Source: a virus. From it: DNA of 37,993 nucleotides. Position numbers and translations under genes: made by a program. Within the stretch, counting starts at the first letter, position 1. Each line of letters starts with the position of its first letter. The notes under the pieces are model-generated. The model ran no database searches and was not told where the DNA came from. It was given only the letters and a program-made list of their open reading frames with translations. Where the stretch lies: positions 1 to 37,993 of the IMG/VR virus record IMGVR_UViG_3300044801_000339. The stretch is one strand, 5' to 3'. Shown here in pieces: positions 4,683-36,403 of the stretch.

Positions 4683-5047
4683 GCTTTTTTCTCCAATTCA
4701 TCCTGGTTCGTCACGGAGACCGTGATGAACTGAGCGATCTGAGTGGTGTCCATTGTGATGATGCGTATCAATCGGCGTTGTCGGGTTTTCTTGAGGTGGT
4801 GGTGAAGGGCGATCGAGCTCCAGACTATGTTGCCAGACACGAGCATCGTTCCCGAGGCGAGGCTCCACCACTGTGCCAGGTGCGAGAAGAAGGCGAGGTT
4901 CCACAGGCCCCAGATTGCATAGTAGATGGTGAGAGGCCAGAAGATGCCGCGTATTTGCCTATCTCTCCAAAGGTGCTGGACGTTTTTCCAGGCCGCCAGG
5001 GCGCCACCTAGCTGGAAGAGAGCGTTGATGAGATCGAAGGTTTTCAC
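4679..5047 (-). CDS. small membrane protein, 122 aa
   Basis: Three hydrophobic helices are apparent: about residues 5-20, 35-55 (FWPLTIYYAIWGLWNLAFF) and 60-82, followed by a His/Lys/Arg-rich segment and a polar C-terminal tail. Probably an inner-membrane protein. The GTG start overlaps the helicase stop (GTGA), and its own stop overlaps the ParB-like start (TTGA), so all three are likely co-translated. No family recognised. Confidence 0.75.
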   Translation of the reverse strand: MKTFDLINALFQLGGALAAWKNVQHLWRDRQIRGIFWPLTIYYAIWGLWNLAFFSHLAQWWSLASGTMLVSGNIVWSSIALHHHLKKTRQRRLIRIITMDTTQIAQFITVSVTNQDELEKKA

Positions 5048-7794
5048 AGAGGTAAGCCCATTTGTGACGGTGATGAAGGTAGCTTGAGACCATGGTCAGG
5101 CAACCTATTGAGTGCTTTGTCGATGACTTCCTGCTTGGCGACCACTCGCTTGCAGATGTTGACGTCGAGCGTGCCGTCGAGCACGAGGTGGATGACATGG
5201 ACCATCTTTTTTTGACCCATACGACAGAGGCGATCTTCTGCCTGGGAGAGCACGGCCGGGTTCCAGTCGATTTCGATGAACACGACGGTGGAGGCGGCGT
5301 AGAGGTTGAGACCGATGCCCGCGGCTTTGAGACCGCCGATGAAGATCTTCTTGTCACCTTCCTGGAAGGCGCGCACGACCTTTTCGCGGTCTTGCTGCCG
5401 GGTAGCACCGTGGAGCGATACGGCCTGATCTCCGTAGTGTTCGGCGAGTTTGGCCAGGACGTCTTGGTGGTGGGCAAAGATGACGAGTTTGTCGAGTCCG
5501 GCGGCGAGCATATCGTCGATGTATTCGATGCAGGCCGGGAGCTTGGCCAGGGCCGTCCTGTGTCGGAAGTCGGACATTTCCTGGAAGGCGACGCCGGTGA
5601 ACTCGTCGAGGGCACGCACGGCGAGTCGGTATTCGAGCTGAGTCTTGGCGGCTTCGAGTGCCGCCAGTTTGGCCTCGTAGTCACGTTCGTAGAGATCGCG
5701 CCAGCGGCGGAAGTCTGGATCGCGAGACCAATCGGCCTGGGCATCGTTGAGGGTGACGAGCTGGCGGCGTTTTGGGGGGAGATCCTTGAGAACGTCGCTC
5801 TTGAGCCTTCGGAGCATGAAGCTTGCGCGCAGTCGTTGTTGGAGTTCTCCGAGGTTGGTGGCGCCCGTGTCGACAGATACGACACTACCGCCACGTTTTT
5901 CGTCGTGGAGTCCGCAGTATCTTTTGAGAAAGGCGATCCTATCGCCGAACTTGGCAGGACAGATGGCAGCGGCCAGGGGCCAGATCTCTTTTGGGTAGTT
6001 CTCGATCGGCGTGCCGGTGAGGGCGAGGAACCTGTGTGCGCGCTGCAAGAGTCCTTCACGACCGAGTATCGCTTGCGAGCGTTTTGTATTATAGGTCTTG
6101 AGAGCTTGAGCCTCGTCACACACGAGAACATCCCAGACGCGTTTGAGAGATTCGGTGAAGGGGTTGACACCGATGAGCTTCTCGTAGTTGGTGATGACCA
6201 CGAGGTTGTCTTGTTTTGGAACCTCGAATTTTGGGCCTGTAGGGATGATCACTGTCATGGGCTTGACGAGCCATCGTTCGATTTCTTGCCTCCAGTTGAA
6301 ACGCAGAGTGCTTGGACACACGATGAGCACGCTTTTGGGCTTAGGGTCGCCTGACCGCAGGTGGTTCACGAAACCCAAAGCTTGAATCGTGTTGTGGGTC
6401 AGAATGTAGTCGTCGGTGACGTAGAGGCGGTCGGGAGAGTTGACAGCAAGGCATTGAGTTTCCTTGTGACCGACGAATTCGATGTTGATTATGGAACGAC
6501 AGGGGGGATATTTTTCGCGGATTATGTTGTGTTGTAGTTTTCTTGCTAAGCGACAAGGGACAATGTTGTTTGGCAACCGGACTGACATACGGTACGAGAC
6601 TCTGCATTTGGTTGTTTTAGGACGGATTCTTGCAGTTCCTCCCAAGCTCCAGACGAGGTGTTGCACGTCTTTAGCAAGCTGAAGCGACGAGCTGGAGTAT
6701 TCAATGTTACCATCTAGGGGCCGAACGTGTCCATCCGAGTCTATCAGTCCTTGGAGAAGTGAAATTCGGTTTTGAGTTGAGGTCCAGAGGTAGTTGTGGG
6801 GGATTTTTTTCTCGTAGCTGTGGTAACCCATGAGATCTATCTTGCGTAGATGATCTAGAAAGGCATTGGGACGACCTGGCTTGTGCTCCGTGGTGGTTAC
6901 AATGAACTCGATAGGACTTGTTTGAGGCGACAGGATGAAGCCTTGGGGGAGTAAGGATGATATGCGTTCAACACTTTCACGATCAGGAATCGTAACGTGT
7001 GCGCTAACTTGTGAGAGGCCACCATTTCCGAGAAGGTAGCCGATAACATACGGGTCTACGAAGAGAGGACGTCTTTTGTGGTCACAGGGTTCAACCAAAC
7101 GAACGAAGTGCTTGTGGTTGTTTTTGTCCTTGAGACCAATATCCATGATCTGTCTTGTGGTTAGTATCTTAGGAGGATTTTTTCGCTTACGGCGCAGGGG
7201 AGTGTTGACTTCCCACAGGTGGTCTTCACCACATTCAGTCGTTGCACCATCCTGAAAGGTTACTCGGAAGACTTTGCGGACTCCTTGTGGGTACACATTC
7301 TCAACAGGATATGAGAGACCGTCAGACCCGATGATGAGTTGTCCCTTTTTCACTTCTCCCATAGTGGTCCATCCATAGGGAGTGAGTATTTTAGCGTCCA
7401 GAGGTTGTTCTTTCCCAAGCCCCATATCGTCTCCGAGAAGCGTGTCTTTGTGATCTCGTATGAAGGCAATGCCTGCTAGTTGGTATGGAGCATACTTGAG
7501 ACCTTGAGGGGCTGGAACGAGAATGTCAGAGGTTACAGCTCTTGATTTGGCGAGTTTGTCCACATGAGTCTTGATGGCAGCAAGGGCAAGCTGGTTACAA
7601 TAAGAACGAAGACGTGTGGCGGACTCAACTCGATTAGACCACCAACGGTTTCCAATTCGCGCGTAGCAGGCTTTGCATCGTTTGTCAGGTGTGCAGAGGG
7701 AAGGTTCGTGGGGCTCGAAGCCAGCTTTGGTGAGGACAGAGCGATCTTCTGGCTTGTCGACCACGAAGATTCCTTTCCAGAATGTGACAATCAC
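5044..7794 (-). CDS. SNF2-family (SMARCAL1-like) helicase with intein
   Basis: 916-aa precursor; after intein removal the extein is about 576 aa. An N-terminal segment (VTFWKGIFVVDKPEDR, then GNRWWSNRVESATRL) resembles the short substrate-binding module before SMARCAL1-like helicases, with an inserted CTPDKRCKAC cysteine pair. Helicase motifs: Walker A DDMGLGK|T (residues 122-128, then 469 after the intein), Ia LIVCPSTLRFNW, DEAQ at 560-563, TGTP at 593-596, motif V and QAEDRLCRMGQ at 851-861. The family remodels or anneals branched DNA using ATP. I start it at GTG 7794, which overlaps the stop of the 61-aa gene (GTGA) and has GAAGG upstream; a longer frame to a TTG at 7854 has no such signal. 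The intein makes activity conditional on protein splicing. Confidence 0.93.
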   Translation of the reverse strand: MIVTFWKGIFVVDKPEDRSVLTKAGFEPHEPSLCTPDKRCKACYARIGNRWWSNRVESATRLRSYCNQLALAAIKTHVDKLAKSRAVTSDILVPAPQGLKYAPYQLAGIAFIRDHKDTLLGDDMGLGKEQPLDAKILTPYGWTTMGEVKKGQLIIGSDGLSYPVENVYPQGVRKVFRVTFQDGATTECGEDHLWEVNTPLRRKRKNPPKILTTRQIMDIGLKDKNNHKHFVRLVEPCDHKRRPLFVDPYVIGYLLGNGGLSQVSAHVTIPDRESVERISSLLPQGFILSPQTSPIEFIVTTTEHKPGRPNAFLDHLRKIDLMGYHSYEKKIPHNYLWTSTQNRISLLQGLIDSDGHVRPLDGNIEYSSSSLQLAKDVQHLVWSLGGTARIRPKTTKCRVSYRMSVRLPNNIVPCRLARKLQHNIIREKYPPCRSIINIEFVGHKETQCLAVNSPDRLYVTDDYILTHNTIQALGFVNHLRSGDPKPKSVLIVCPSTLRFNWRQEIERWLVKPMTVIIPTGPKFEVPKQDNLVVITNYEKLIGVNPFTESLKRVWDVLVCDEAQALKTYNTKRSQAILGREGLLQRAHRFLALTGTPIENYPKEIWPLAAAICPAKFGDRIAFLKRYCGLHDEKRGGSVVSVDTGATNLGELQQRLRASFMLRRLKSDVLKDLPPKRRQLVTLNDAQADWSRDPDFRRWRDLYERDYEAKLAALEAAKTQLEYRLAVRALDEFTGVAFQEMSDFRHRTALAKLPACIEYIDDMLAAGLDKLVIFAHHQDVLAKLAEHYGDQAVSLHGATRQQDREKVVRAFQEGDKKIFIGGLKAAGIGLNLYAASTVVFIEIDWNPAVLSQAEDRLCRMGQKKMVHVIHLVLDGTLDVNICKRVVAKQEVIDKALNRLPDHGLKLPSSPSQMGLPL
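6391..7410 (-). mobile_element. class 3 (WCT) intein with LAGLIDADG endonuclease domain
   Basis: A 340-aa in-frame insertion between Lys and Thr of the helicase Walker A motif. It begins EQPLDAKILTPYGW, without the usual Cys or Ser at position 1, and ends THN followed by Thr +1. The class 3 triad is visible: Trp in block B (CGEDHLW), Cys in block F (KETQCLAV) and Thr in block G (LTHN). Two endonuclease motifs are present: GYLLGNGGL (block C) and LLQGLIDSDG (block E). In block C the catalytic Asp is replaced by Asn. The DNA is AT-richer than the flanking helicase. Splicing is expected from the motifs; homing is doubtful because of the Asn substitution. Confidence 0.92.
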
Positions 7795-7976
7795 TTGAGG
7801 CCAACCTTCTTTCTGACACCCATTACAGCTTCGACTAGAGACGCTTTTGAACAATTGAAGGTCTCGTCAGTCTTACTGTTGACAATCAATGACTTGTACT
7901 TCATCGAACCTTGTTTTCCAGCGTTGGTTGTCACATAGGTTCTGAGTATCGGGCGCGTCGGTCGCCTTGTTTTCAT
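7791..7976 (-). CDS. small basic hypothetical protein, 61 aa
   Basis: Begins MKTRRPTRPILRTYV and is rich in Lys and Arg. ATG at 7976 is preceded by GAGGAACGTC, a good ribosome binding site, and the stop overlaps the helicase GTG (GTGA). It is the first gene of the leftward block. An alternative view is that it is the N-terminus of the helicase joined by a frameshift, but the coupled GTGA junction and the natural helicase start favour a separate gene. Confidence 0.6.
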   Translation of the reverse strand: MKTRRPTRPILRTYVTTNAGKQGSMKYKSLIVNSKTDETFNCSKASLVEAVMGVRKKVGLK

Positions 7977-8236: not shown

Positions 8237-8764
8237 ATGGCACGAGGAAAGAATACACAGGCAGAGGCACAGGTCGTAAGGGCACCGGCGGACTTTCGAG
8301 ATCTCGGTTCGGTCACGGCTGAGTGCTGGTTCAACCTGGAGCCGGGCAACGTCATGCAGGGCACGTTGCTTGGCATGTACGAGATGAAGGACGACAGGTC
8401 GAGCAAGCCTGGCGCGATGAAGAACTTCTTTCAGATCTGCGTGACGGAGCCCGGAGCACGCGGCCGTTACGGCAAGGGCGAGGATGCCGAGGTTTCGGAA
8501 ATTCCTGTCGGCGCCGTGGTCAATCTCAACTACGGCGTCAAGACGAAGGTGCTGGAGACTCTTTTGCCGAGCATCCAGAACAACGCCAAGCACGCGGTGT
8601 GGATCCATTGCGGCGAGAAGATCAAGGTCGGCAAGGGTCAAACGATGTGGGTCATCACCTGCAAGTCGAAGATGTTGCGGGCGCCCACCGCGGCTCCCGA
8701 GCCGGATTTTTCCGACGTGGAGCCCGAGACCACGAGCTCCAGCTCCGACACCTCCGAGGAGTAG
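8237..8764 (+). CDS. candidate ssDNA-binding (OB-fold-like) protein
   Basis: 175-aa protein starting MARGKN, with AAGGAG six bases before the ATG. The centre is beta-rich (residues about 35-150: LEPGNVMQGTLLGMYEM, FFQICVTEP, VNLNYGVKTKVLETLL, KHAVWIHCGEKIKVGKGQ), consistent with an OB-like barrel. The C-terminus is strongly acidic with a run of serines (TTSSSSDTSEE), resembling the acidic tails of bacterial and phage single-stranded DNA-binding proteins. It is the first gene of the rightward block that contains the DNA polymerase, opposite the helicase block. No family is firmly recognised; the SSB role is inferred from tail, fold and position. Confidence 0.55.
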   Translation: MARGKNTQAEAQVVRAPADFRDLGSVTAECWFNLEPGNVMQGTLLGMYEMKDDRSSKPGAMKNFFQICVTEPGARGRYGKGEDAEVSEIPVGAVVNLNYGVKTKVLETLLPSIQNNAKHAVWIHCGEKIKVGKGQTMWVITCKSKMLRAPTAAPEPDFSDVEPETTSSSSDTSEE

Positions 8765-8767
8765 ACC

Positions 8768-8962
8768 ATGCCACGTCCGGTGGCAATACGGGTCAGTTAC
8801 CGTAACGACGCCGCTTTTCTGCTGCGATTCGAAGAGGCCGTGAGCAAAGATCTGAATCAGACGGAAGAGTGGCGGCGCAAGGTGTGTGAGAAGTCCCGCG
8901 AGCTTGCGCAGTTGCTTCTGACGGCCAAGGATAGCAGCAAGCAGACCGAGAGGAAGAAGTAG
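8768..8962 (+). CDS. small charged helical protein, 64 aa
   Basis: Begins MPRPVAIRVSYRND and is followed by a long amphipathic, highly charged helix ending in KQTERKK. The GGAG of the ribosome binding site lies in the last codons of the preceding gene, so the two are likely co-expressed. It ends eight bases before a strong terminator. Function unknown. Confidence 0.7.
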   Translation: MPRPVAIRVSYRNDAAFLLRFEEAVSKDLNQTEEWRRKVCEKSRELAQLLLTAKDSSKQTERKK

Positions 8963-8969
8963 CGGGAAG

Positions 8970-9015
8970 ACCTACTCTACCGACCACTGGGGAGGTAGAG
9001 TAGGTTTTTGTTTTT
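8970..9015 (+). terminator. rho-independent terminator
   Basis: A perfect 12-bp stem, ACCTACTCTACC at 8970-8981 with GGTAGAGTAGGT at 8994-9005, a 12-base loop, and a T-rich tail TTTTTGTTTTT. It separates the SSB-like pair of genes from the following ones. Confidence 0.93.
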
Positions 9016-9036
9016 GGGAACCTATTGGAGGTCATC

Positions 9037-9477
9037 ATGTCGGAGAATTTGCTTTCAAGAGTTTCGCAACCGGTTGACGAAGAGGGGGTGCCGACGATCT
9101 GGATTTCGTTCTGTAACGAACTTGGGATCTATCACTGTCATAGGGAGGCCGAGGGCGAGGAGTCGTCGGACGAGAAGTTCACGCGTAACGAGTTGCTCGA
9201 CATCGTCGAGGGTCTCATGAAGTCGGGGCAATTGGCAACGGCCCAGCAGTTGGCGGGGATGTGCGCGTGGGCGAGGCTATTCGCTCACAAGATCGTGGTT
9301 TTCTATACCTCGGGCAGCTTTAAGATTTTTAATCCCACGCCGCCGCCGCCCGAAGAGCAGGAAGACACGGCGGAGATGAAGAAGTTTCTGGCGGAGTGGA
9401 ATGCCAAGCATCCGACGAGCGACACGATCCCAACGGTCGTGGGCTACAGATCTACTTCCTCAAAGGAGACCAGATGA
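9037..9477 (+). CDS. hypothetical protein, 146 aa
   Basis: Begins MSENLLSRVSQPVDEEG; ATG at 9037 is preceded by TTGGAGG. A beta segment (PTIWISFCNELGIYHCH) is followed by an acidic helix (EKFTRNELLDIVEGLMK), a helical hairpin around AQQLAGMCAWARLF and a proline-rich linker (NPTPPPPEEQ). Unknown. Its stop codon overlaps the 8-bp sequence duplicated at the ends of the adjacent methyltransferase cassette, so the insertion left this gene intact. Confidence 0.75.
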   Translation: MSENLLSRVSQPVDEEGVPTIWISFCNELGIYHCHREAEGEESSDEKFTRNELLDIVEGLMKSGQLATAQQLAGMCAWARLFAHKIVVFYTSGSFKIFNPTPPPPEEQEDTAEMKKFLAEWNAKHPTSDTIPTVVGYRSTSSKETR

Positions 9478-9480
9478 AAC

Positions 9481-10091
9481 CATGCCTATTCGGTTGACAC
9501 TCAATGACTGAAACTGCAAATCTTAGAATTGTTCCAGGTGACGGTCCAGATTTTTATCCGACGCCTGCATGGGCCGTGCGAGGGTTGTTGTCTGTAGAAA
9601 CGTTTACAGGGACAATTTGCGAACCTTGTTGCGGGGCAGGGCATATATCAAAAGCGCTCGAAATCGCCGGATATAGAGTCGTTTCGTCCGACTTGTACAA
9701 TTACGGGTATGGCATAAGCGGAAGAGATGCGCGCAGTCTCTCAAAAGCGGTCAATGTTGTGACTAACCCACCGTACAATCTTGCCACTGAGATGCTGCCA
9801 CATCTTCTTTCTGTCACGGAGAGAAGGGTTGCACTGTTGACGCGAATGGCGTTCTTGGAGAGCAAGGTCAGGTTCTTAATTTTTAACAAGTTTCGTCCTG
9901 CGCGTGTTCATGTCTTCTCTGAGAGGCTTTCTATGGCACCTAGTGGCAAAGACGTGAAGGGTGGGGGAACCGTGTCTCATTGCTGGATTGTATGGGATCG
10001 TGAAAACAAGGGATCGACAGTGCTTGACTGGATCACTCCTGGATTCAAAACAAAAGGGCTGTTGTAAATGGGCGTCAACCGGATAGGCATG
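9481..10091. mobile_element. 611-bp TIR-bounded methyltransferase cassette
   Basis: The ends are inverted repeats: CATGCCTATTCGGTTGAC at 9481-9498, and GTCAACCGGATAGGCATG at 10074-10091, 17 of 18 bases matching. The cassette is flanked by identical 8-bp direct repeats, GATGAAAC, at 9473-9480 and 10092-10099, as expected for a target-site duplication. The only gene inside is the NPPY methyltransferase; there is no transposase. G+C is about one half in sampled lines, lower than in flanking genes. It may be a non-autonomous element moved by a transposase supplied elsewhere. A related end motif occurs at 37658. Confidence 0.8.
9504..10067 (+). CDS. NPPY class I SAM DNA methyltransferase-like protein
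   Basis: 187 aa. Motifs: DFYPTPAWAV near residue 16, a SAM-binding loop CEPCCGAGH near 38-46, and catalytic VVTNPPYNLA near 84-93, typical of N6-adenine DNA methyltransferases. The compact size leaves no obvious separate target-recognition domain, so specificity is unknown. The second methyltransferase at 35668 has a similar arrangement (TP-W, EP-G, TNPPF, FL-S), so the two are likely distant paralogues. The start at 9504 lacks a ribosome binding site and lies six bases inside the left inverted repeat, whose inner end TTGACA could serve as a -35. The stop falls seven bases before the right repeat, so the cassette is essentially only this gene. Confidence 0.85.
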   Translation: MTETANLRIVPGDGPDFYPTPAWAVRGLLSVETFTGTICEPCCGAGHISKALEIAGYRVVSSDLYNYGYGISGRDARSLSKAVNVVTNPPYNLATEMLPHLLSVTERRVALLTRMAFLESKVRFLIFNKFRPARVHVFSERLSMAPSGKDVKGGGTVSHCWIVWDRENKGSTVLDWITPGFKTKGLL

Positions 10092-10141
10092 GATGAAACG
10101 GTTAATGTTGTTGACTCGCCTCGTATGAGAGGGCCTGTGAC

Positions 10142-10648
10142 ATGTTAGGCAGGTCGCGAGGCATACGGTCGATAGGTCAAAGACCTATAACCATTAGTGG
10201 GGGGCTTGAACCATCACACGTCCCTGGTCTGGTTATTCAGGGACGAGAGATAGATCTTGCTCGGCCTACAGTGCCCAGGCGTCGACCCATGTCTCCTCTT
10301 TATGAGCGTAGCCTCGCGGCGGGGCAGTTTGAGAGACAGAGCCCGAAGCTTTTGAGGGATTGCCTTTACGATCGCATGGTCGACGGCGAGTTTCATGACG
10401 TCGCTGAGATCGACTCCTGGCTGCCAGGCAACCAGTGGGTGCAGGCGATGGTAGATCTCATCAAGTGGGGATTTGCCTTCGACAAGAGAGAGCGATCTTT
10501 CAGGCTGCGCAAACGGAGGTTGGGCGAACGTCGTCAATATGTCGTGCCCTTGTTGTCGGGAGTTACGTTGCCTCGTTACTACAAGGAAGAGGGCGAGGCG
10601 ACCGAAAAGTCTTCGGGGACGGAGGACGAGGGGCCTTTTGATGATTGA
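10142..10648 (+). CDS. hypothetical basic protein, 168 aa
   Basis: The central part (YERSLAAGQFERQSPKLLRD through DKRERSFRLRKRRL) has alternating helices and an arginine-rich segment reminiscent of a winged helix, but no family is recognised. The N-terminal 45 residues are low-complexity and basic. Start uncertain: ATG at 10142 has a weak GAGAGG upstream, and another ATG exists at 10289. It precedes the first HerA ATPase. Confidence 0.6.
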   Translation: MLGRSRGIRSIGQRPITISGGLEPSHVPGLVIQGREIDLARPTVPRRRPMSPLYERSLAAGQFERQSPKLLRDCLYDRMVDGEFHDVAEIDSWLPGNQWVQAMVDLIKWGFAFDKRERSFRLRKRRLGERRQYVVPLLSGVTLPRYYKEEGEATEKSSGTEDEGPFDD

Positions 10649-10663
10649 ACGTCCGTTTGCGAG

Positions 10664-11716
10664 GTGCCTGACGAAGAACGGATGGTGCTCGACGGCGAAG
10701 GCAAGCTCGTGTTGTCGGCTCTCGACATGGTGACGGAGACGATCGGTATTCTGGCTCGCAAGGGTGCCGGCAAGACGTACCTTGGGACCGTGATTGCAGA
10801 GGAGTATTTGGCGAGCTCGTTCGCGATACCCTTCGTGGTTTTGGATCCGACCGGCGTCTGGCGAGGTCTGGGCGCCGACGTCGATGGACGTCCCAACGAC
10901 AACCGATTGGTCGTGTTTGGGGGAGCGAGCGGTCACTATCCGCTGGGAGTCGACCAGGGACGACAGTTGGCCAAGCTGGTCGTGGGCATGCGTCCTTTGC
11001 CCGTGGTACTAGATTTATCGGGCTTGAGTCCGGAAGATCAACACGGGTTCGTGGCCGATTTCGTGGGCGAGCTGTATCTTCTCAACAAGGAGCCTTTGCA
11101 CCTGTTTATCGACGAAGCTGACACGTTTGCGCCACAGAGCTTGGATAAGTCGTCGAGGCACCAGAAGAGATCGCTGAGCACGGTCGACAATCTGGTTAGG
11201 CGAGGTCGAACTCGGGGGCTTGGAAACACTCTCATTACCCAGAGGGCCGCCGTCATTAACAAGAACGTCTTGTCCCAGGTGGGTGCCATGTTCTACCTGC
11301 GCATGGGTGCCCCTCATGATTTGGACGCCGCCGAACGGTGGATGGCCGAGCAGGTGAAGCCCGAGGCCATGCGCGAGTGTCGCAGGAACTTGCCCATACT
11401 GGGGCAGGGGCAGGCGTACTACTTACATGGTGGGGATAGGTACACATTCAGCAGGTTTACAGTGAGGGCGAAGAATACGTTCGATTCGTCGGCGACACCC
11501 AGGATGGGCGAGACGGCGAGAACCATGAGGTTGGCTCCTCTTGGAGCGGACGTCCGTATGAAGATCGAGAGTTTCTTGGAAGTCAGATCGGCACCTGCGA
11601 CGGGAGATCTCGTGGAGTTAAACGAGAGATCTGAATTCGATTCGGAAAGGAACGACTTGCCGGTATTGGGTCAGGAAGCCGATGAAGAAGATCTTGACGA
11701 CGATTTGGAAGGGTGA
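10664..11716 (+). CDS. HerA/FtsK-type ATPase (DUF87-like) 1
   Basis: 350 aa. Walker A is RKGAGKT at residues 32-38; Walker B is LFIDEAD with Asp150/Glu151; VRRGRTRGLGNTLITQR supplies the sensor/arginine-finger region of the HerA-FtsK superfamily. The VVLDPTGVWRGL and VVFGGASGHYPL segments are typical of phage and plasmid DUF87 ATPases. The C-terminus is acidic (EADEEDLDDDLEG). It should be a ring-forming ATP-driven motor or nucleic-acid translocase. Start at GTG 10664 or ATG 10682; neither has a strong ribosome binding site. It is followed directly by the H1-like repeat gene and the second HerA-type ATPase, suggesting a common process. Confidence 0.85.
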   Translation: MPDEERMVLDGEGKLVLSALDMVTETIGILARKGAGKTYLGTVIAEEYLASSFAIPFVVLDPTGVWRGLGADVDGRPNDNRLVVFGGASGHYPLGVDQGRQLAKLVVGMRPLPVVLDLSGLSPEDQHGFVADFVGELYLLNKEPLHLFIDEADTFAPQSLDKSSRHQKRSLSTVDNLVRRGRTRGLGNTLITQRAAVINKNVLSQVGAMFYLRMGAPHDLDAAERWMAEQVKPEAMRECRRNLPILGQGQAYYLHGGDRYTFSRFTVRAKNTFDSSATPRMGETARTMRLAPLGADVRMKIESFLEVRSAPATGDLVELNERSEFDSERNDLPVLGQEADEEDLDDDLEG

Positions 11717-11718
11717 CT

Positions 11719-12834
11719 GTGGCCATTCAAAAAAGAGACAAGTGGGGGCGGTATGTTTCTCGCAAGTCTTCGTCCATTTCCAATCTTCGTCCTGGTGTCA
11801 AATCTAAGGCATCCGCGAAGAAAACGATTTCTAATCGGCGTTCGGTAGCCAAACCCAAGACGACCCCGAAGAAGCCTATTCCTCGCGGGCGTCCGGTCGT
11901 CAAACTCAAGACGACTCCGAAGAAGCCGATTCCTCGTCGGCGTCAGGTTGTCAAACCCAAGACGATTTCAAAGAAGCCGATTCCTCGCCGGCGGCCGGTC
12001 GTCGAATCCAAGACTACGCCGAAGAAGCCTATTGCTCGCCGGCGTCCTGTCGCCAAACCCAAGACGACTCCTAAGAAGCCTATTTCTCGCCGGCGTCCTG
12101 TCGCCAAACCCAAGACGACTTCGAAGAAGCCTATTCCTCGTAGGCGACAGGTAGCCAAACCCAAGACAACTCTGAAGAAGCCGATTCCGCGTCGGCGTTT
12201 GGCAGTCAAACCCAAGACGACTACCAAGAAACCCGCGAAGGTCGTCAAGAAGAAGCGTCCGCGGCGCCAGTATCCGACGTTCATATCGCAGGCTCTAGCG
12301 GCCGAGGCCTTGTCGCTCCAGAAACTATCGAGGTTTCAGGACACGATCGTCATCATCGAGCCTGAGATCGACGTGGGACTCAAATCTTTTGTCAACTCCG
12401 ACGGTACCGTCGACGCCGAGCTTCGGTTGCGCAATCTTCCCGATCTATGGAGGACCCTGGAAGGACAGCCTTCCTTGGGGAGCGCCTTGTCGGAAGCCGT
12501 GCGTGTGATGGGGGCATTTCCAAGGCAACCGTCCATGGGTGGAGCATTCTGGGTGTCGTTCGGAGTCAGATTCGGTCCCAAGAACGAGGCCGAGGTCGAG
12601 ATGATGGCGAAGTTCTACAAGCGGTTTCGGGGACTCTTCCAGGTGGGGGCCTACCATACGACGGCGTCAGCAGTGCCAGCCATCTTGAACAATGCCGCCA
12701 CGGTTAGAAGTCTTGTCGAGAGCATCTGGGATAAGCGCGACTTGCCGCCGGCGCAAGTGCTGGTTCGCATCGTATGGACACCTGACGGTCAACGTCCGGG
12801 ACGATTCCAGGGAGAAGGAGGGAGTGCAAAATGA
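11719..12834 (+). CDS. histone H1-like repeat protein with C-terminal globular domain
   Basis: About 370 aa. The N-terminal 35 residues are followed by eight tandem 17-aa repeats with consensus KKPIPRRRPVAKPKTTP, similar in style to eukaryotic H1 and bacterial H1-like tails that bind DNA by charge. The C-terminal 180 residues are a globular domain (FQDTIVIIEPEIDVG, MGGAFWVSFGVRFG, VLVRIVWTPDGQ) without a recognised family. GTG 11719 is chosen because GGAAGG sits six bases upstream; a GTG at 11713 overlaps the previous stop (GTGA) but lies too close to that site. Likely a DNA-condensing or DNA-tethering protein; position between two HerA ATPases suggests a link to DNA movement. Confidence 0.75.
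   Translation: MAIQKRDKWGRYVSRKSSSISNLRPGVKSKASAKKTISNRRSVAKPKTTPKKPIPRGRPVVKLKTTPKKPIPRRRQVVKPKTISKKPIPRRRPVVESKTTPKKPIARRRPVAKPKTTPKKPISRRRPVAKPKTTSKKPIPRRRQVAKPKTTLKKPIPRRRLAVKPKTTTKKPAKVVKKKRPRRQYPTFISQALAAEALSLQKLSRFQDTIVIIEPEIDVGLKSFVNSDGTVDAELRLRNLPDLWRTLEGQPSLGSALSEAVRVMGAFPRQPSMGGAFWVSFGVRFGPKNEAEVEMMAKFYKRFRGLFQVGAYHTTASAVPAILNNAATVRSLVESIWDKRDLPPAQVLVRIVWTPDGQRPGRFQGEGGSAK
11818..12225 (+). repeat. eight 51-bp tandem repeats (coding)
   Basis: Each 51-bp unit encodes a 17-aa Lys/Arg/Pro/Thr block of the H1-like protein; units differ by synonymous and a few nonsynonymous changes. Such arrays can vary in copy number by slippage or recombination. Confidence 0.85.
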
Positions 12835-13061
12835 GCGATCATCGTGATGTGGTAGACGAGCTTCGAGCGATACGTGTCTGGTTACCTGACAAGGGGAAAT
12901 TAGTGATGACAAGCGAGGCGGTTGAGGACATCTGTTCAAGAGGAGCAAGGGAAATCGAGAGATTACGTCGTGGTTTAATTGAAATAGCCGGGATGGGCGA
13001 CGATCCGTTTAACCGTCAGTCGCGTAGGGCACGAGAACTTTTGGTGGGAGACGAGAGATGA
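12831..13061 (+). CDS. small helical protein, 76 aa
   Basis: Begins MSDHRDVVDELRAIRVW; two or three amphipathic helices, highly charged. ATG overlaps the previous stop (ATGA), and its own stop overlaps the next ATG, so it is translationally coupled on both sides. GGAGGGAG stands upstream. Function unknown; probably a partner of the ATPase genes around it. Confidence 0.7.
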   Translation: MSDHRDVVDELRAIRVWLPDKGKLVMTSEAVEDICSRGAREIERLRRGLIEIAGMGDDPFNRQSRRARELLVGDER

Positions 13062-14842
13062 ACCGCGTTGTGGAATTGGGGAGGTTTCACGATGGAAGAT
13101 CTTTCAGCGGCGATCTTGATGTCGTTCTGAGATCTAACGTTCTCGTGCAGGCGAACAGTGGGGGCGGAAAAAGTTGGCTGCTCCGGAGGATGATCGAGCA
13201 GGTTTTCGGCAAGGTGCCCCAGATAATCATAGATCCAGAGGGAGAGTTTTCGTCCTTGCGAGCGAAGTTCGACTTCGTGCTGGTGGGCAAGGGTGGCGAT
13301 ACGCCGGCCGATTTGAGGTCTGCCGTGTTGCTGGCGCACAAGCTTCTGGAGCTCGGCGCCAGCGCTGTCGTAGATCTTTATGAGATGTCGAAGGTTCAGC
13401 GGCCATTGTGGGTTGCCGCCTTCGTACAGGCCCTTGTCGACGCTCCGAAGCGGCTATGGCGCGACTTGCTGGTTTACGTCGACGAGGCTCATGAGCTGGC
13501 CCCCGAGCTCGGACATGGAGCGCGCGAGAGTTCGGGTGAGAAGATTTGTCGCCACGCTCTCATCGACCTGGCGGCCAAGGGAAGAAAACGAGGTTACGGG
13601 GTTGTGGCGGCGACTCAGAGGTTGGGGAAGCTGTCGAAAGACTTCGCGGCAGAGCTCAAGAACGTGCTCGTGGGCCAGACGTTCATCGACATCGACCGCG
13701 AGCGGGCGGCGGGGTGTCTTGGCATAGCGAAAGTCGACAAGGCTAGCTTTTTCGTGGATGTCAAGACTCTGACTCCTGGTCGCTTCTATGCACTCGGCAG
13801 AGCTTTTGTTCTTGAGCCCACGCTTGTCCAGATAGGAAATGTAACGACAGAGCATCCCGAGGCAGGTAGGAGGCAGTCGGAGCCTCCGCCGCCGACCGAC
13901 AAAATCAGACATCTTCTGCCACAACTGGGAGATCTGCCCAAAGAGGCGGAGGCCAAGCTCGTGAGGGAGAGTGACTTGCGAGTTGAAGTCGCTCGGCTCC
14001 AAAATTCTCTGTCCAAGATGGAATCGCAATCAAAGAAACCCGTTGTCGTCGAGGTGGAGAGGTTGCCCCGCGAGGTTCTTGCCCAGGTGGCCGAAGCGAT
14101 CAAGAAGGCAGAAGGGGTCTTGAATTGGAAGAGAAAGTTGCAAGAGAATATGAAGTGGGATTTAGCGTCTCACGTCGAGTATATAGGTACCACGTTGAAG
14201 GAGTGTCGAGACGCGTCTTCCAAGGGCAAGATGGTCGGCCGACAGTCAAGTTTATCGGAAAGGGAGAATCGAGCGACGTCGTCGCTCCAATCGAGAGAAA
14301 GATTTTCGGGGCACAAAGGAGATCTGACGGCGGTCACAAGGCCCAATGTTCAGAGCCAGGAAGCCCTTCGCCTGCCCAAGGGTGCTAGAGACATCTTGAG
14401 GGCGCTGGGGAGCCGGCATCCTACGTCTCTTACGAGAACTCAGTTGGCGACTTTGGCCGGACTGTCTCCAAACTCGGGAACGTTTTCCACTTACCTTTCG
14501 CGATTGAATGTGGAAGGGTACCTGGGCCTTTGCGACGGCAAGTATGGGCTTAGTGCCGAGGGGGCCAAGATAATTGAAGGGGCTTTTCCCAATGTAGAGT
14601 GCTTAGGACACACATCGGAGGACCTGGTGCGGTTGTGGTCGAGCAAACTGCCGGGTGCCTCGAAGAATTTGCTTGAAGCTTTCGCTCGTTATGGTTCGTT
14701 GACGCGTGAACAGGCAGCGGAGCTGGTAGGCATGTCGCCTTCATCGGGAACTTTTTCGACGTACCTGTCCAAGTTAACCTCGAACGGTCTCGTGACCAAG
14801 ACGAGCGAGGGTTACGTAATCGCCGACGAACTGGCCTTGTAA
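13058..14842 (+). CDS. HerA-type ATPase 2 with duplicated winged-helix C-terminus
   Basis: 594 aa. Walker A is NSGGGKS at 33-39 and Walker B LLVYVDEAHEL with Asp142/Glu143; GRKRGYGVVAATQR supplies the arginine-finger/sensor segment. After a coiled-coil-like linker (residues about 290-400), the C-terminus holds two copies of a winged-helix repeat: LTRTQLATLAGLSPNSGTFS and LTREQAAELVGMSPSSGTFS, each followed by TYLS. This layout is seen in phage and plasmid HerA-like proteins; the wings probably contact DNA. It overlaps the preceding small gene and directly precedes the DNA polymerase. The substrate is not known. Confidence 0.88.
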   Translation: MNRVVELGRFHDGRSFSGDLDVVLRSNVLVQANSGGGKSWLLRRMIEQVFGKVPQIIIDPEGEFSSLRAKFDFVLVGKGGDTPADLRSAVLLAHKLLELGASAVVDLYEMSKVQRPLWVAAFVQALVDAPKRLWRDLLVYVDEAHELAPELGHGARESSGEKICRHALIDLAAKGRKRGYGVVAATQRLGKLSKDFAAELKNVLVGQTFIDIDRERAAGCLGIAKVDKASFFVDVKTLTPGRFYALGRAFVLEPTLVQIGNVTTEHPEAGRRQSEPPPPTDKIRHLLPQLGDLPKEAEAKLVRESDLRVEVARLQNSLSKMESQSKKPVVVEVERLPREVLAQVAEAIKKAEGVLNWKRKLQENMKWDLASHVEYIGTTLKECRDASSKGKMVGRQSSLSERENRATSSLQSRERFSGHKGDLTAVTRPNVQSQEALRLPKGARDILRALGSRHPTSLTRTQLATLAGLSPNSGTFSTYLSRLNVEGYLGLCDGKYGLSAEGAKIIEGAFPNVECLGHTSEDLVRLWSSKLPGASKNLLEAFARYGSLTREQAAELVGMSPSSGTFSTYLSKLTSNGLVTKTSEGYVIADELAL

Positions 14843-14843
14843 C

Positions 14844-17003
14844 TTGGCTGTTTTCGGTCCCATCAATACCGAGCGCACCTTGCGCCGGTTTGGAGCCCTA
14901 GATCTCGAATGGGTTCCGGGCGAAGTTCTGCCCATGCCCGAGCGGACGATTTTCGAGATTGAGGGAATTGGCGAGCCTCTCGTCATCAATCTGCCGCCGG
15001 CCAAGACAAGGACGCGGCCCTTGGAGCTGCGACTTGCTGGGTACTATGACCAGCAACCCGAAGATCACGACAAGGGCGCTCACGATCGAGACGACAGTCC
15101 GGTCATGGTCGAACGATACGAAGCTTTCAAGACGGTGGCAGAGCTCATCGATTTCATGCTCGTGCGCGAGCACCGAGGGATGTGGTTCTATGCGCACGCC
15201 GGGGGGTTGTTCGATATGGAGTTTGTGCTCGACGAACTGCTCAATCAGATCAAGGAGCAGCTTGCCGTCGACAAGAGCAACGAATCCTTGACCAACCACG
15301 TGCGCAGTCAGGTGGTGTGGGATGCCACCAATCAAAAACGTGAAGAGACGGTGGTGGTCAAAGACAGGTCTGATAAGAAAGGCCAGACGTGGACCATCAA
15401 GGCAGCGTTCTCGGGGTCGTCGGCGATCTTGATTCATGTCAGCCGCGGCAAGGATACGTGGCACTTTGTCGACAGCTATTGGCTGTTTCGCGACAAGCTT
15501 TCCAAGATTGGAGAGAGCATCGGCATCAAAAAGAAGGACGAGGAAAAACGCAGGACGCCCGAGGAGACGAGGCTCTATTTCGCGAACACGCCCCTTTCGG
15601 AGCTCATACCCTACAACAAGGTCGACTGCGAGATTTTGTGGAAGGCCGTGGCGAAGTTCGAGGAAGAGCTCGTGGCCCTGGGAGGACAGCTTCAGCAGAC
15701 GATCGCCTCGACCGCCATGAACCTCTTTCGGCGCTCGTACATGAAGGAAACCATACACACGTCGGAGGTCGTGAATCAGATTGCCGTCAAGAGCTATTTT
15801 GCGTCGCGCGTGGAGGTTTTCGAACGCAACGTGGAAGACGCCAGGGTATTCGACATCAATTCGTCTTTCCCGTTTTCGATGACGTTTCCGTTGCCGGCGA
15901 ATCTCATAGATCTGGGGACGACGTTACCCGAAGACGACAGCGACGAGTGTTTGTATGTGGCGGACGTGACGGTGGAGGTTCCCGACATGGATGTGCCTCC
16001 GTTGCCATTTCGCACGAACGAAGACAGTCGGGTGTTTTTTCCCACGGGCAAGTGGCGATCTTGGTTCACGTCGACCGATATACGGCTCGCGTTGCGCGAG
16101 GGATGCCGGTTGCATGCGGTCCACGAGGTCTACCGGTTTGCGCCGTTCTACGATTTCGCGAGGTACGCCAAGGAGATTTACGCCCTGCGGGCCGCGGCGA
16201 CGTCTCCCTTTCGGAAGCTTTTGCTAAAGTACCTTCTCAACAGCCTCTATGGCAAGGCGGCCGAGTCGCTTCTCAAGCAAGAGATGCTCATCAACCCGCG
16301 CGCCGAGGAGCTCGACAGATCCAAGATGCAGATGCTCCAGCCTGGAATCTGGCTACAGGAGAAAGAGGTACCGATTGCTCACCGGCACGTGGTCGTATCG
16401 TCGGTCATCACGGCCTTGTCGAGAAGGCTTCTTTTCGACTACATCAAGATGTGCTCCAAGCAAGGAAAGCCCGCCTACTACAGCGATACAGATTCGATCT
16501 GTACGAAGGCCGATCTGCCGACGGATCCAAAGGAGCTTGGAGCCCTGAAGCTTGAGAAGCATCTCGACTGGGCCGAGTTTGTGGCGCCCAAGATCTACCG
16601 GGGAGAGGGGAAGGAGCTCAAGGGGGATGGCACCTGGAAGGACGTGAAGCTCGCCAAGGCGAAGGGTTTCTCGCTTGGCAAGTTCGACGATCCACTGGAC
16701 GCCCTGGGCAAGATCATCGATGGGGAGCAGGTGGGGGTTCAGACGATGGTGCGCATGAGGGAGCTTTACCACGCATCGAGCCCTCAAAAGATCGAGAGTT
16801 CTCCCTACGAGAAGCTGACGATAAAAGCATTGACGCAGAGGATGTTGTCGAAGCGGTTTCAGTATCCGGACGGATCCACGAGGCCCTGGACCGTGGGAGA
16901 GATTTTGTCGGGCGATCACGTCGCTCATGGGTTTGATTTCACCGACGATTTTTTGGCAACTCTCGATACGACGACGCGAGCAATGCTTGCGGCTGCTGTG
17001 TGA
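14844..17003 (+). CDS. family B DNA polymerase (organellar/viral type)
   Basis: 719 aa with all key motifs: Exo I ALDLEW (Asp20, Glu22), Exo II HAGGLFD (Asp124), Exo III YNKVD (Asp261), motif A DINSSFP (337-343), motif B KYLLNSLYGK (462-471) and motif C YSDTDSI (546-552). The proofreading and polymerase sites both look intact. The compact palm and the spacing between motifs A and B resemble the DNA_pol_B_2 group, which includes protein-primed enzymes; no terminal-protein gene is recognised here, so protein priming is unproven. The start is TTG two bases after the previous stop; there is no strong ribosome binding site and no ATG before the exonuclease motif. Confidence 0.93.
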   Translation: MAVFGPINTERTLRRFGALDLEWVPGEVLPMPERTIFEIEGIGEPLVINLPPAKTRTRPLELRLAGYYDQQPEDHDKGAHDRDDSPVMVERYEAFKTVAELIDFMLVREHRGMWFYAHAGGLFDMEFVLDELLNQIKEQLAVDKSNESLTNHVRSQVVWDATNQKREETVVVKDRSDKKGQTWTIKAAFSGSSAILIHVSRGKDTWHFVDSYWLFRDKLSKIGESIGIKKKDEEKRRTPEETRLYFANTPLSELIPYNKVDCEILWKAVAKFEEELVALGGQLQQTIASTAMNLFRRSYMKETIHTSEVVNQIAVKSYFASRVEVFERNVEDARVFDINSSFPFSMTFPLPANLIDLGTTLPEDDSDECLYVADVTVEVPDMDVPPLPFRTNEDSRVFFPTGKWRSWFTSTDIRLALREGCRLHAVHEVYRFAPFYDFARYAKEIYALRAAATSPFRKLLLKYLLNSLYGKAAESLLKQEMLINPRAEELDRSKMQMLQPGIWLQEKEVPIAHRHVVVSSVITALSRRLLFDYIKMCSKQGKPAYYSDTDSICTKADLPTDPKELGALKLEKHLDWAEFVAPKIYRGEGKELKGDGTWKDVKLAKAKGFSLGKFDDPLDALGKIIDGEQVGVQTMVRMRELYHASSPQKIESSPYEKLTIKALTQRMLSKRFQYPDGSTRPWTVGEILSGDHVAHGFDFTDDFLATLDTTTRAMLAAAV

Positions 17004-20930: not shown

Positions 20931-21434
20931 ATGGCACTCTACTGTTCGGTTTGCGGCAACAACGTGCCAGAGGGCCGAAACCAATGTGGCGTTTGCAACA
21001 ATGGGTTCGTGTCTCAGTTGGCTTGCGCCGTTTGCCAGCGAATGGTGATGAGAGGCAATGCTCGGTGTGTAGGTTGCCCTGGTAGACCTGCCGACGACGT
21101 TCATTCCGGAGAAAACATCGACGAGACGTCGGGTACTCTCGATCGTTACCGGGGAGGCGACAGGAGCACCGAGATTGCGAGGCGCCGGGATTGGTCGGGG
21201 GGAGAGACCTCGCTCGATGTGGGAAGATTCGGAGCGATCTCGAACGTGACGGTGCCTGACAACGAGGCCGCGCTCATGAGCGAGCTGGGAAATGGAGTGC
21301 AGGTGTTGCTCAACCTCGCCAATACGCTTTCTCGAAGCAAGGGTCACACGGAGATTTCACGGAAGGTAATCAGGGAGTGTCGGACGCTTGCGACGCTCAT
21401 TCAGGAAGAACTGGAAACGAGGAGAGGACCGTAG
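20931..21434 (+). CDS. multi-zinc-knuckle protein, 167 aa
   Basis: The first 50 residues hold four cysteine pairs in zinc-ribbon spacing: CSVC, CGVC, CAVC and CVGC, probably binding two zinc ions. A low-complexity linker with GGD and RRR follows, then a helical C-terminus (LLNLANTLSRSKGHTEIS, ending LIQEELETRRGP). It is coupled to the RRM gene by a one-base gap, which suggests a nucleic-acid-related role. Confidence 0.75.
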   Translation: MALYCSVCGNNVPEGRNQCGVCNNGFVSQLACAVCQRMVMRGNARCVGCPGRPADDVHSGENIDETSGTLDRYRGGDRSTEIARRRDWSGGETSLDVGRFGAISNVTVPDNEAALMSELGNGVQVLLNLANTLSRSKGHTEISRKVIRECRTLATLIQEELETRRGP

Positions 21435-21435
21435 G

Positions 21436-21843
21436 ATGGTAAAGCTCTATGTGTGCAACATCAATTTCGCCGCCACCGAAGACGGTTTTAGAGAGTGGCT
21501 CACCGAAGTGCAAGGGTACGTGGTCGATAAGGTTCAGCTCATCATGAGCGGCGAGACCGGCAAGTCGAGAGGGTTTGCCTTTGTGACTTTGGAGACCGAG
21601 CCTGCTGCCCGCGAGGCCTTGAGAGATCTGGAGGGCGAGTATTTTATGAATCGTCCCTTGCATGTGGCCGAGGCTACAGCCAAGCCGCGAACCGGCGAGC
21701 GGCGTAAATCGTCTTCCGGGGGGCTGGCGGGGCAAGGTCCCGCCAAGTATCGGAAGAAGGGAATTGGGGGCCAAGGTACGGGACGACGGTATGCCGTCGA
21801 TCATGGAGCCGACGTCGAGATCGACTGGTGGAGCGACAAATGA
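21436..21843 (+). CDS. RRM RNA-binding protein
   Basis: 135 aa. Canonical RNA recognition motif: RNP2 LYVCNI near residues 4-9 and RNP1 KSRGFAFVTL near 43-52, with the usual beta-alpha-beta spacing, then a glycine/arginine-rich tail (GERRKSSSGGLAGQ) and an acidic end. It resembles cyanobacterial and other bacterial single-RRM proteins that bind RNA. The start ATG has GAGAGGA upstream. Presence in a phage-like element is uncommon; a role in mRNA stability or host RNA control is inference. Confidence 0.9.
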   Translation: MVKLYVCNINFAATEDGFREWLTEVQGYVVDKVQLIMSGETGKSRGFAFVTLETEPAAREALRDLEGEYFMNRPLHVAEATAKPRTGERRKSSSGGLAGQGPAKYRKKGIGGQGTGRRYAVDHGADVEIDWWSDK

Positions 21844-27628: not shown

Positions 27629-28737
27629 TGCCCAGACTTGCGGTAAACATGCTGGTTCTGAACGCAGAGAAGGTGCTGGACAGGTGCCTTCGGCCCTTGG
27701 CCGGCGTTGTGGACGAACTCGTGGTGGTGGACAGTGGCTCGGATGACGGAACGCGCGTCAAGCTCGAAGAGATCGCCGCATCCCTGAGGCTTGACAGGTA
27801 TTACTACGAGCGCTTGCATCCGTGTGGAAAGGATTTTTTCACCGACGAACAGGCGTCATGGAACAGGGGCATGCCGGGTCCTTTTACCGGGCGCCGGGTT
27901 TTGGCCGACTGGGCAAAAGCGCGCAACGTGGCTCTCGACAACACCACGGCCGACTACGTTTTGAAGCTCGATGCCGACGACGAGCTTTTGACGCCCGCGG
28001 GAAATCTGTCGGCGCTACTCGTTCATCTCGACCAAAACCCGCACGTGTCGATTGTTTCCGCTCCCTACGAGATCATGGACGGTCAGGGCAATCCCGAGTG
28101 GTTGTCCATGTACGATAGGATCTGGAGATGCAATAGCGGTCATCGCTGGAAGCAGCCGATGCACGAGTACCTAGGTGGCAAGACGAGGGGCAATACGATG
28201 TTCGTGCCTGGAGGGCTGGCCGTTCGCGACTGGCGAGATTCTCCGGGCGAGGGGGTACGTATAGCCCACAGAAATTTGAAGGTTCTCCTTCACACCTGGG
28301 AGACTCAAGATCCACGTTTCGACGTGCGTTGGGCTTTCCACAACGATCTAATCTTCAGGTTCACGCTCGCTCACGAGGCGGCCGAGGTGTTTCCGTCCTG
28401 GTCGCGCGAGCTTTTGGCCAATGTCATGACGAGACTGGATCCGGCGGACCTAGGAATGTTGTCCGACTGCCATTACCACAAGGGCAGATCTCTGGAGGCG
28501 GAGGGACGAACGCAGGACGCTTACGAGGCGTATCTGGAGGCCGACCGCTCTACGAGATCTCACACGCAAGCGTTATTGCGGGCGTGGGCTATCGCGCACT
28601 ATGGCGAAATGAAAACCATGCTTGCCGCCGACATTGTCACCAGGATGAACTCCAAAGGTCAACCTTCTTACAATTGCGATCTTAGGTTACTGGCGAAAGT
28701 TCTGAATTCACAGAAAGCTTCATACCTATCAGCTTGA
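27628..28737 (+). CDS. GT2-like glycosyltransferase with C-terminal helical repeats
   Basis: 369 aa. GT-A motifs: AVNMLVLNAEKVLDRCLRPL, VVDSGSDDGT at 33-42 and KLDADDE at 113-119. The C-terminal third (GMLSDCHYHKGRSLEAEGRT, EAYLEADRSTRSHTQALLRA) has TPR-like helices, as in the enzyme at 23600. Start coupled by TGATG. Family 2 inverting transferase; donor and acceptor unknown. Confidence 0.87.
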   Translation: MPRLAVNMLVLNAEKVLDRCLRPLAGVVDELVVVDSGSDDGTRVKLEEIAASLRLDRYYYERLHPCGKDFFTDEQASWNRGMPGPFTGRRVLADWAKARNVALDNTTADYVLKLDADDELLTPAGNLSALLVHLDQNPHVSIVSAPYEIMDGQGNPEWLSMYDRIWRCNSGHRWKQPMHEYLGGKTRGNTMFVPGGLAVRDWRDSPGEGVRIAHRNLKVLLHTWETQDPRFDVRWAFHNDLIFRFTLAHEAAEVFPSWSRELLANVMTRLDPADLGMLSDCHYHKGRSLEAEGRTQDAYEAYLEADRSTRSHTQALLRAWAIAHYGEMKTMLAADIVTRMNSKGQPSYNCDLRLLAKVLNSQKASYLSA

Positions 28738-28765
28738 CAACTCCAAATGAATCAAGAGGAGAAGA

Positions 28766-29206
28766 ATGAAAATATACGTGGCCTCATCATGGCGAAATAC
28801 CTACCAGCAATCGGTCGTGAAGCTGCTGCGACATCTCGGGCATGACGTTTACGATTTTCGCAATCCGGCACCTGGAAACTATGGATTCGCTTGGTCGTCA
28901 ATAGATCCAAACTGGAAAAGTTGGACGCCGGACGTTTATCGGAAAGCGTTGAAAAATCCGATAGCCAAGGATGGCTATGCACTCGACAGTGACGCTATCC
29001 GTTGGTGTGACGCTGGCGTGTTGGTGCTACCGTCTGGACGCTCAGCCTCGTTTGAGCTTGGGCACATCATGGGACAGGGAAAGCCCGGCTTCGTCTATAT
29101 GCCAGAACCTTGTGAACCCGAATTGATGTACGCCGAAGCTAGTATCCTGGTGTCAGATGATGAGTTGCGCGAGCATTTCAACCCGTATTGCGGAGTCGTC
29201 CGATGA
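28766..29206 (+). CDS. nucleoside 2-deoxyribosyltransferase-like protein
   Basis: 146 aa. MKIYVASSWRN at the start, SDAIRWCDAGVLVLPSGRSA and SFELGHIMGQGKP match the nucleoside 2-deoxyribosyltransferase fold: N-terminal strand, acidic strand, and the catalytic Glu in the S-x-E-x-G helix. Such enzymes exchange bases between deoxynucleosides or hydrolyse deoxynucleotides. Strong AGAGGAGAAGA upstream. AT-richer than the adjacent transferases. Whether it handles normal or modified nucleotides is unknown. Confidence 0.8.
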   Translation: MKIYVASSWRNTYQQSVVKLLRHLGHDVYDFRNPAPGNYGFAWSSIDPNWKSWTPDVYRKALKNPIAKDGYALDSDAIRWCDAGVLVLPSGRSASFELGHIMGQGKPGFVYMPEPCEPELMYAEASILVSDDELREHFNPYCGVVR

Positions 29207-35667: not shown

Positions 35668-36309
35668 ATGGACGACGGCGAGAAGCCCGAAAACGAAGCC
35701 TACATGACCCCCTGGTGGGTCATAAGACGCCTGCTTGAGGTCTGGAGGCCTCCACTGGGTATCGCTGTGGAGCCGGCCGTTGGTGAATACGCCATCGTCA
35801 AAAGTTTGAGCGAATTTTCACCTCGAATCTCCAAATGGATAACCTGCGACATTCGGGAAGTTTATCCGCTGGCGTGGGCAGGAAGCGCACCTAGGGTGCC
35901 TATTCAACACACGAAGTGTGACTATACAAAAACCTCGTTGCCAGTGTCGGATGTTTCTTTAGTCATCACCAACCCGCCTTTTTCGTTGGCCGAGTCTTTC
36001 ATCCGGAAAGCCCGGTTCGATTGTCCGAAGGCTGAACTCGTTTTCTTGTTGCGTCTGGGGTTTCTGGCTAGCGCCGATAGGTCCGACCTGTGGAACGAGA
36101 TTGGCGAGCCCAACCTTTGGGTTTTGCCGAACCGCCCCTCGTACACGACCTCGAAGCCCGGCACGCTCAAAACCGACAAATACGACTATGGATGGTTCAT
36201 CTGGCCGCCCTTTAGTCACACTACAAGTGCCCCTGGCGAGGGATTCAAGAGATGTGGGTCGTTGGGACATCTCAAGCTGACGTCGCTAGAGGAAAGAAAA
36301 CTCGGCTGA
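35668..36309 (+). CDS. NPPF class I SAM DNA methyltransferase-like protein
   Basis: 213 aa. EAYMTPWWVIRRLLEVW, then VEPAVGE (SAM loop), VITNPPFSLAESFI (catalytic motif IV), FLLRLGFLAS and a late YDYGWFIWPPF segment, a layout common in phage adenine-methyltransferase-like proteins (TP, EP-x-G, TNPPF, R-x-S-F/Y-x-x, Y-x-W-x-x-W). Distantly similar to the cassette methyltransferase at 9504. The ATG has only a weak GAGAG upstream. DNA adenine methylation is likely; target unknown. Confidence 0.85.
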   Translation: MDDGEKPENEAYMTPWWVIRRLLEVWRPPLGIAVEPAVGEYAIVKSLSEFSPRISKWITCDIREVYPLAWAGSAPRVPIQHTKCDYTKTSLPVSDVSLVITNPPFSLAESFIRKARFDCPKAELVFLLRLGFLASADRSDLWNEIGEPNLWVLPNRPSYTTSKPGTLKTDKYDYGWFIWPPFSHTTSAPGEGFKRCGSLGHLKLTSLEERKLG

Positions 36310-36403
36310 CTTGCCAGATCTGCACTCACCCCTGACGATTCGCTCTGGTAACCTTCGGTCCTCGGACTTTTCGTCCACCACCCCACAAAGGAGATCACCC
36401 GCC

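Follow-up and report, generated by a model that had tools for sequence, protein, structure and literature searches.

A DNA methyltransferase gene between IS1595-type ends in a virus, and the family of transposon-like cassettes to which the unit belongs

Introduction

Phage genomes are mosaic, and it has long been asked how they acquire individual accessory genes at the junctions between genes. One such junction lies in the DNA analysed here, the 37,993 nucleotides of IMG/VR virus record IMGVR_UViG_3300044801_000339 (the window), where a gene for a DNA methyltransferase sits between short inverted repeats that are themselves bounded by direct repeats. A sequence-only reading had taken this unit for a new kind of transposon-like passenger or self-protecting element. 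What kind of unit is it, does it belong to a mobile family, and what may its gene do for the phage?

Boundaries of the window element

The element occupies positions 9481-10091 (611 bp) and encloses one gene, for a DNA methyltransferase of family phrog_799. Its left terminal inverted repeat, CATGCCTATTCGGTTGAC (9481-9498, plus strand), and its right one, CATGCCTATCCGGTTGAC (10074-10091, minus strand), match at 17 of 18 positions, and both ends are of the CATGCC type. The left arm runs on imperfectly to about 9508, and with this imperfect extension the arms reach 29 nt at 83%. Identical 8-bp copies of GATGAAAC (9473-9480 and 10092-10099, neither assigned a strand) directly abut the two inverted ends as target duplications. 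The left copy includes the TGA stop of the upstream gene (9475-9477), which is preserved intact. The GC content is about 49% in the element and about 53-61% in its flanks. The element contains no transposase, and a search of the whole record finds no IS1595 transposase anywhere in it. The sequence-only reading had described the inverted ends, flanking repeats of the kind left by transposition, a missing transposase, a deviant base composition and a spared stop codon, and each of these descriptions holds. A composite transposon was also considered and was rejected, as the record lacks an IS1595 transposase.

With up to three mismatches allowed, 0.01 copies of the element end are expected in the window by chance and three are observed. 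Two are the ends described above, and the third is a degenerate match at 28721. This match, CATACCTATCAGCTTGAC (28721-28738), forms the left end of a probable decayed second cassette (28721-29206, plus strand), whose right end is eroded and not recognisable. The deoxyribosyltransferase-like gene within it (28766-29206) is 77% identical in nucleotides to the cargo of an intact cassette (L041), so that this probable unit shares its cargo gene with cassettes that are intact elsewhere. No relatives of either gene flanking the 611-bp element were found, and hence no empty site for that insertion. Judged by these two genes, the virus has no close relative.

A family of elements with the same ends

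The ends follow the consensus CATGC[C/T]TATCCGGTTNAC. When IMG/VR was scanned for exact copies of the end, 25 stretches came up; in many of them a second, inverted end lies at a distance of a few hundred to about 2000 bp, with perfect 8-bp repeats outside. A relaxed end pattern was scanned in viral and bacterial collections, and the family counts given here are counts among the matches listed. They comprise at least 116 distinct elements flanked by target duplications, which are nearly always 8 bp long and have at most one mismatch; of these elements, at least 82 lie in uncultured viral contigs and at least 34 in bacterial genomes.

Inverted repeats of this kind could instead be operators or hairpins flanked by chance repeats, and the ends do include TTGACA, a -35-like hexamer. 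However, identical 8-mers abut both ends exactly in 91 of the 125 nearest convergent end pairs (all fetched loci), whereas they match in 0 of 125 once the two flanks are moved 1-8 bp outward; the chance of such a match for one end pair is about 1 in 65,000. By this control (91/125 at shift 0, none at shifts 1-8) we reject operators or hairpins as an explanation, which leaves it practically no chance of being correct. The same control settles a doubt raised in the sequence-only reading, since the repeats are not ordinary operators.

The size of the elements differs strongly between viral and bacterial sequences among the matches listed. The ends in bacteria bound mostly MITEs of about 100-235 bp and some bare IS of about 980-1070 bp, whereas the ends in viruses enclose longer, gene-bearing elements. 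The median length is 654 bp in viruses and 194 bp in bacteria (Mann-Whitney p=1e-9), and elements of at most 250 bp make up 25 of 34 in bacteria and 1 of 82 in viruses, again among the matches listed. In one Myxococcales metagenome-assembled genome (L149-L225, contigs JAJYLH010000...), many elements of 131-194 bp have the family ends, a sign of MITE expansion. Isolate phages present a different picture. Short DNA queries with the cassette ends gave no match in 50,697 isolate phage records, and just three weak matches to the IS1595 transposase appear in such records, all in faecal contigs. The cassette family may have been overlooked because it was not found in isolate phages.

The transposase and the IS family

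The sequence-only reading had called for a search for a transposase with the same ends, and one exists. It is roughly 310-350 aa long and is present in about 28 elements among the matches listed, L069, L097 and L119 included, mostly together with passengers in viruses. One transposase, that of L036, was scanned against curated models, and the remaining ones were assigned by sequence similarity to it. It matches DDE_Tnp_IS1595 (PF12762, E=1e-33), the NCBI IS1595 model NF033547 (E=2e-54) and, at its N-terminus, the IS1595 zinc ribbon (PF12760, E=5e-13) that marks all groups of the family but IS1016. Among named elements, ISAcr1 of Acidiphilium comes closest, with a transposase that is 65% identical; ISAcr1 has ends CTTGCCTATCCGGTT and, in the copy in L276, the 8-bp duplication GAATCAGC. 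The transposase, the zinc ribbon and the 8-bp target duplications of the autonomous relatives agree with the definition of the IS1595 family (PMC8101967). The window element has no transposase gene of its own; it is an IS1595-family derivative by its ends and is itself no IS.

Cassettes often lie in records that encode no such enzyme. Of seven viral records with several cassettes that were tested for an IS1595 transposase, two have one and five lack it, which means that its source must in many cases be in another place or outside the contig. In several autonomous elements the end supplies TTGACA, with a TAGTAT-like sequence 17 bp further on; this arrangement is a plausible promoter and was not seen in the cassettes inspected.

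Evidence of mobility

Several loci bear signs of movement. In a 194-kb viral contig, two copies that are 99% identical occupy two sites with different duplications, AAAGAAAG and ACTAAAAC. A 504-bp cassette in L061 interrupts a gene, and its excision together with one repeat gives a continuous DUF5131 match across the junction (E=2e-61); in the relatives L267-L270 and L272, the DUF5131 gene is uninterrupted at this site. The cassette in L112, 299 bp long, divides a GH113-like gene, and removing it restores the match (E=5e-32). Cassettes that interrupt genes restored by removal are also at odds with operators or hairpins. Two candidates for empty sites were discarded: the one for L038 amounts to a 73%-identical homologue of the interrupted gene, of which L077 and L245 have intact versions, and the one for L087 is a repeat with no clean empty site. 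The L038 cassette itself (L038:7632-8915), which carries a methyltransferase, lies within another IS1595-like transposase gene.

Cargo genes and modularity

About 60 viral elements among the matches listed have no transposase, and they usually carry a single cargo gene. The cargo includes N6/N4 methyltransferases (L038, L039, L059, L070), a D12-type methyltransferase (L060), other phage methyltransferases (L073, L075), a Lar restriction-alleviation protein (L031), an RNA ligase (L094) and deoxyribosyltransferase-like proteins (L025, L037, L041). Matches below the cutoff suggest MazG-like (L085), PAPS reductase (L047, L082, L124) and HNH (L132) proteins. Many cargoes are small unknown proteins; those of L113 and L138 match the profile of phrog_3193, of unknown function, and by our own reading of their sequence appear ASCH-like. 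Methyltransferases also occur in autonomous elements (L054, L099, L143). Including the window element, at least 11 of at least 82 viral elements bear a methyltransferase. These methyltransferases, together with Lar, suggest that genes for counter-defence move about in transposable units. As to a self-protecting element, the methyltransferase is one cargo among many, and thus the element needs no methyltransferase for self-protection.

The ends appear to be modular. When the terminal 45 bp are grouped by eye, sets emerge in which both ends are alike well beyond the 18-bp core and the cargo is unrelated, for example L055, L062, L072, L075, L092, L100, L112, L113, L122 and L129. The window element is in none of the large groups. 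In L025, L037 and L041 the left end terminates in TAGGAGAACA just ahead of the start codon, and in L053, L070 and L124 it includes ACTAGATGTTGACG, whose ATG begins ORFs starting MLT. By a crude, ORF-based count, the cargo has the same orientation as the surrounding ORFs in 28 cases and the opposite one in 9 (p=0.003), as expected if read-through expresses the cargo. A deoxyribosyltransferase-like cargo of 149 aa has a dN/dS of 0.03-0.07 and is under strong constraint, that is, purifying selection. One viral contig has two diverged 568-bp cassettes of the same cargo family that are 69% identical (L281:535-1102 and L281:4275-4842).

These properties bear on two other explanations. The unit could be an internally deleted, MITE-like IS whose ORF is incidental and not selected as cargo, since bare IS and 100-235-bp MITEs with the family ends are common in bacterial genomes. 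It is disfavoured by the cargo-sized viral elements, the low dN/dS of one cargo family, the biased cargo orientation and the methyltransferase itself, an intact homologue of a phage family with all its motifs, and is very improbable. Alternatively, the cassettes could have their main home on bacterial chromosomes and plasmids and reach viral records by chance or by misassignment of prophages, so that phages would not be the main carrier. ISAcr1-like IS and MITEs do reside in bacteria and plasmids, and isolate phages show almost none. However, among the matches listed the viral elements are mostly forms with cargo and the bacterial ones mostly MITEs, the cargoes belong to phage protein families, and several viral contigs hold at least two cassettes, some with different cargo. 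We therefore regard a mainly bacterial residence as unlikely, although it deserves more weight than an incidental ORF.

The methyltransferase and its setting

The cargo gene of the window element (9504-10067, plus strand) encodes a predicted SAM-dependent DNA methyltransferase of 187 aa that matches the phrog_799 profile (E=1e-55) and has motif I (EPCCGAG) and motif IV (TNPPY) of these enzymes. Residues E40, G44, D63 and T87-N88-P89-P90 are invariant across seven aligned homologues. A structure model with a mean pLDDT of 76 is similar to SAM methyltransferases, among them type I M subunits and M.TaqI, and also to RNA methyltransferases; this last likeness weakens the case for DNA as the substrate. 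Homologues occur in 408 isolate phage records, every one less than 60% identical, and the closest homologues in viral contigs, when checked for cassette ends, have none that are recognisable. The gene family itself is thus not tied to the cassette, and homologues in isolate phages and nearest viral relatives outside recognisable cassettes point to an ordinary phage gene captured between IS ends. The window has a second phrog_799 methyltransferase (35668-36309), which is 26% identical to that of the cassette and has no recognisable cassette around it.

The genes on either side, an upstream phage gene of 150 aa (9025-9477) and a downstream one of 168 aa (10142-10648), are also on the plus strand, and no family was found for either. 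No promoter- or terminator-like sites were found in 8700-10800, including the inside of the element, and the cassette has no clear Shine-Dalgarno sequence for the cargo gene. The upstream gene bears AAAGGAGACC at its end, a sequence that may pass ribosomes on to the cargo gene. The insertion point lies just after AAAGGAGACCAG, at an ATGA overlap, and by its sequence this position would make the cargo gene reachable by ribosomes from the upstream gene.

The window has further features of note. What appears to be an intein containing a LAGLIDADG domain interrupts a SNF2-type helicase (5044-7854), and two HerA/FtsK-like ATPases (10664-11716 and 13058-14842) lie near a family B DNA polymerase (14844-17003). 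The first half of an ORF at 11713-12834 contains a long lysine-rich repeat (KPKTTPKKPI...RRR). A subtilase-family peptidase gene (36311-37651) and a small RRM-domain protein (21388-21843) are both unusual in phages.

A model for the cassette

The window unit is very probably a non-autonomous passenger cassette of an IS1595-family (ISAcr1-like) transposon that is presumably moved in trans and expressed by read-through and is probably active against restriction. The transposase would come from an autonomous copy, carried either by the host or by a co-resident element. That this record has no transposase, and that no empty site was found for this insertion, count against the model. Having recognised the 18-bp ends, the transposase would have placed the unit directly downstream of the gene that stops at 9477, and an 8-bp staggered cut would have duplicated GATGAAAC. 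Having no promoter of its own, the cassette would rely on read-through of the phage operon, and translation of the methyltransferase would be coupled to the point where the upstream gene ends. Most likely, the methyltransferase would modify phage DNA by methylation and thereby allow escape from host restriction. Similar cassettes with swapped cargo seem to circulate among uncultured phages.

A broader proposal, for and against which we hold the case to be evenly balanced, is that phages have a transposase-driven system of gene cassettes. Its units would be modular, end-gene-end, and in some of them the conserved end would supply a ribosome-binding site or a start codon. Cargo would be swapped between fixed ends, and anti-restriction and nucleotide-metabolism genes would be moved between unrelated phages. 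Phages appear to trade single genes, some likely for counter-defence, via a borrowed transposase. The precise signature, known ends with an 8-bp duplication, makes gene gain in phages readable event by event and testable with a defined transposase.

Comparison with known systems

The sequence-only reading was right that the unit is transposon-like, as independently supported by the matching transposase family, the at least 116 relatives, the restored genes and the near-identical copies at two sites of one contig. Its claim of a new kind of unit goes too far, because the ends are those of IS1595/ISAcr1, and mobile insertion cassettes (MICs) and IS with passengers, including methyltransferases, are known. 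The unit shares with IS1595/ISAcr1-like elements the terminal sequence ([C][A/T/G]TGCCTATCCGGTT), the 8-bp duplications and, in autonomous relatives, a related transposase, but its interior is a methyltransferase gene in place of a transposase. A MIC is a passenger gene between IS ends that has no transposase and is expected to move with the cognate IS in trans (PMC3129680). The window unit has this structure and is a MIC-like derivative of the IS1595 family. Described MICs, such as MIC231 of IS231, belong to other IS families and to bacteria, whereas the present set is large, lies in phages and has many cargoes and, in some ends, translation signals. Transporter IS (tIS) include IS1595-family and other IS with passenger genes, among them methyltransferases as in IS220 (PMC11891212). 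The autonomous viral elements fit the tIS, but tIS retain their transposase and the window unit does not.

In phages, the mycobacteriophage mobile elements MPME1/2 are very small (about 440 bp) and have inverted repeats, but their insertion adds a 6-bp sequence beside the left repeat and makes no target duplication (PMC3029335). The window unit is likewise a very small phage element with inverted repeats, but has an 8-bp target duplication and is not an MPME. A search of open-access papers for the element end sequence gave no match. What is new is a large, diverse, cargo-swapping and apparently phage-enriched set; no such set was found in isolate phage records or in the open-access papers searched, and an earlier description elsewhere is possible.

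The closest likeness in working is to integron gene cassettes, promoterless single genes that are exchanged among replicons, with the recipient driving their expression. Integrons use attC sites and a tyrosine integrase, in place of the inverted repeats and DDE transposase of the present family, so the two are alike in working only. If the proposal is true, these cassettes move genes between unrelated phages as integrons move resistance genes between bacteria.
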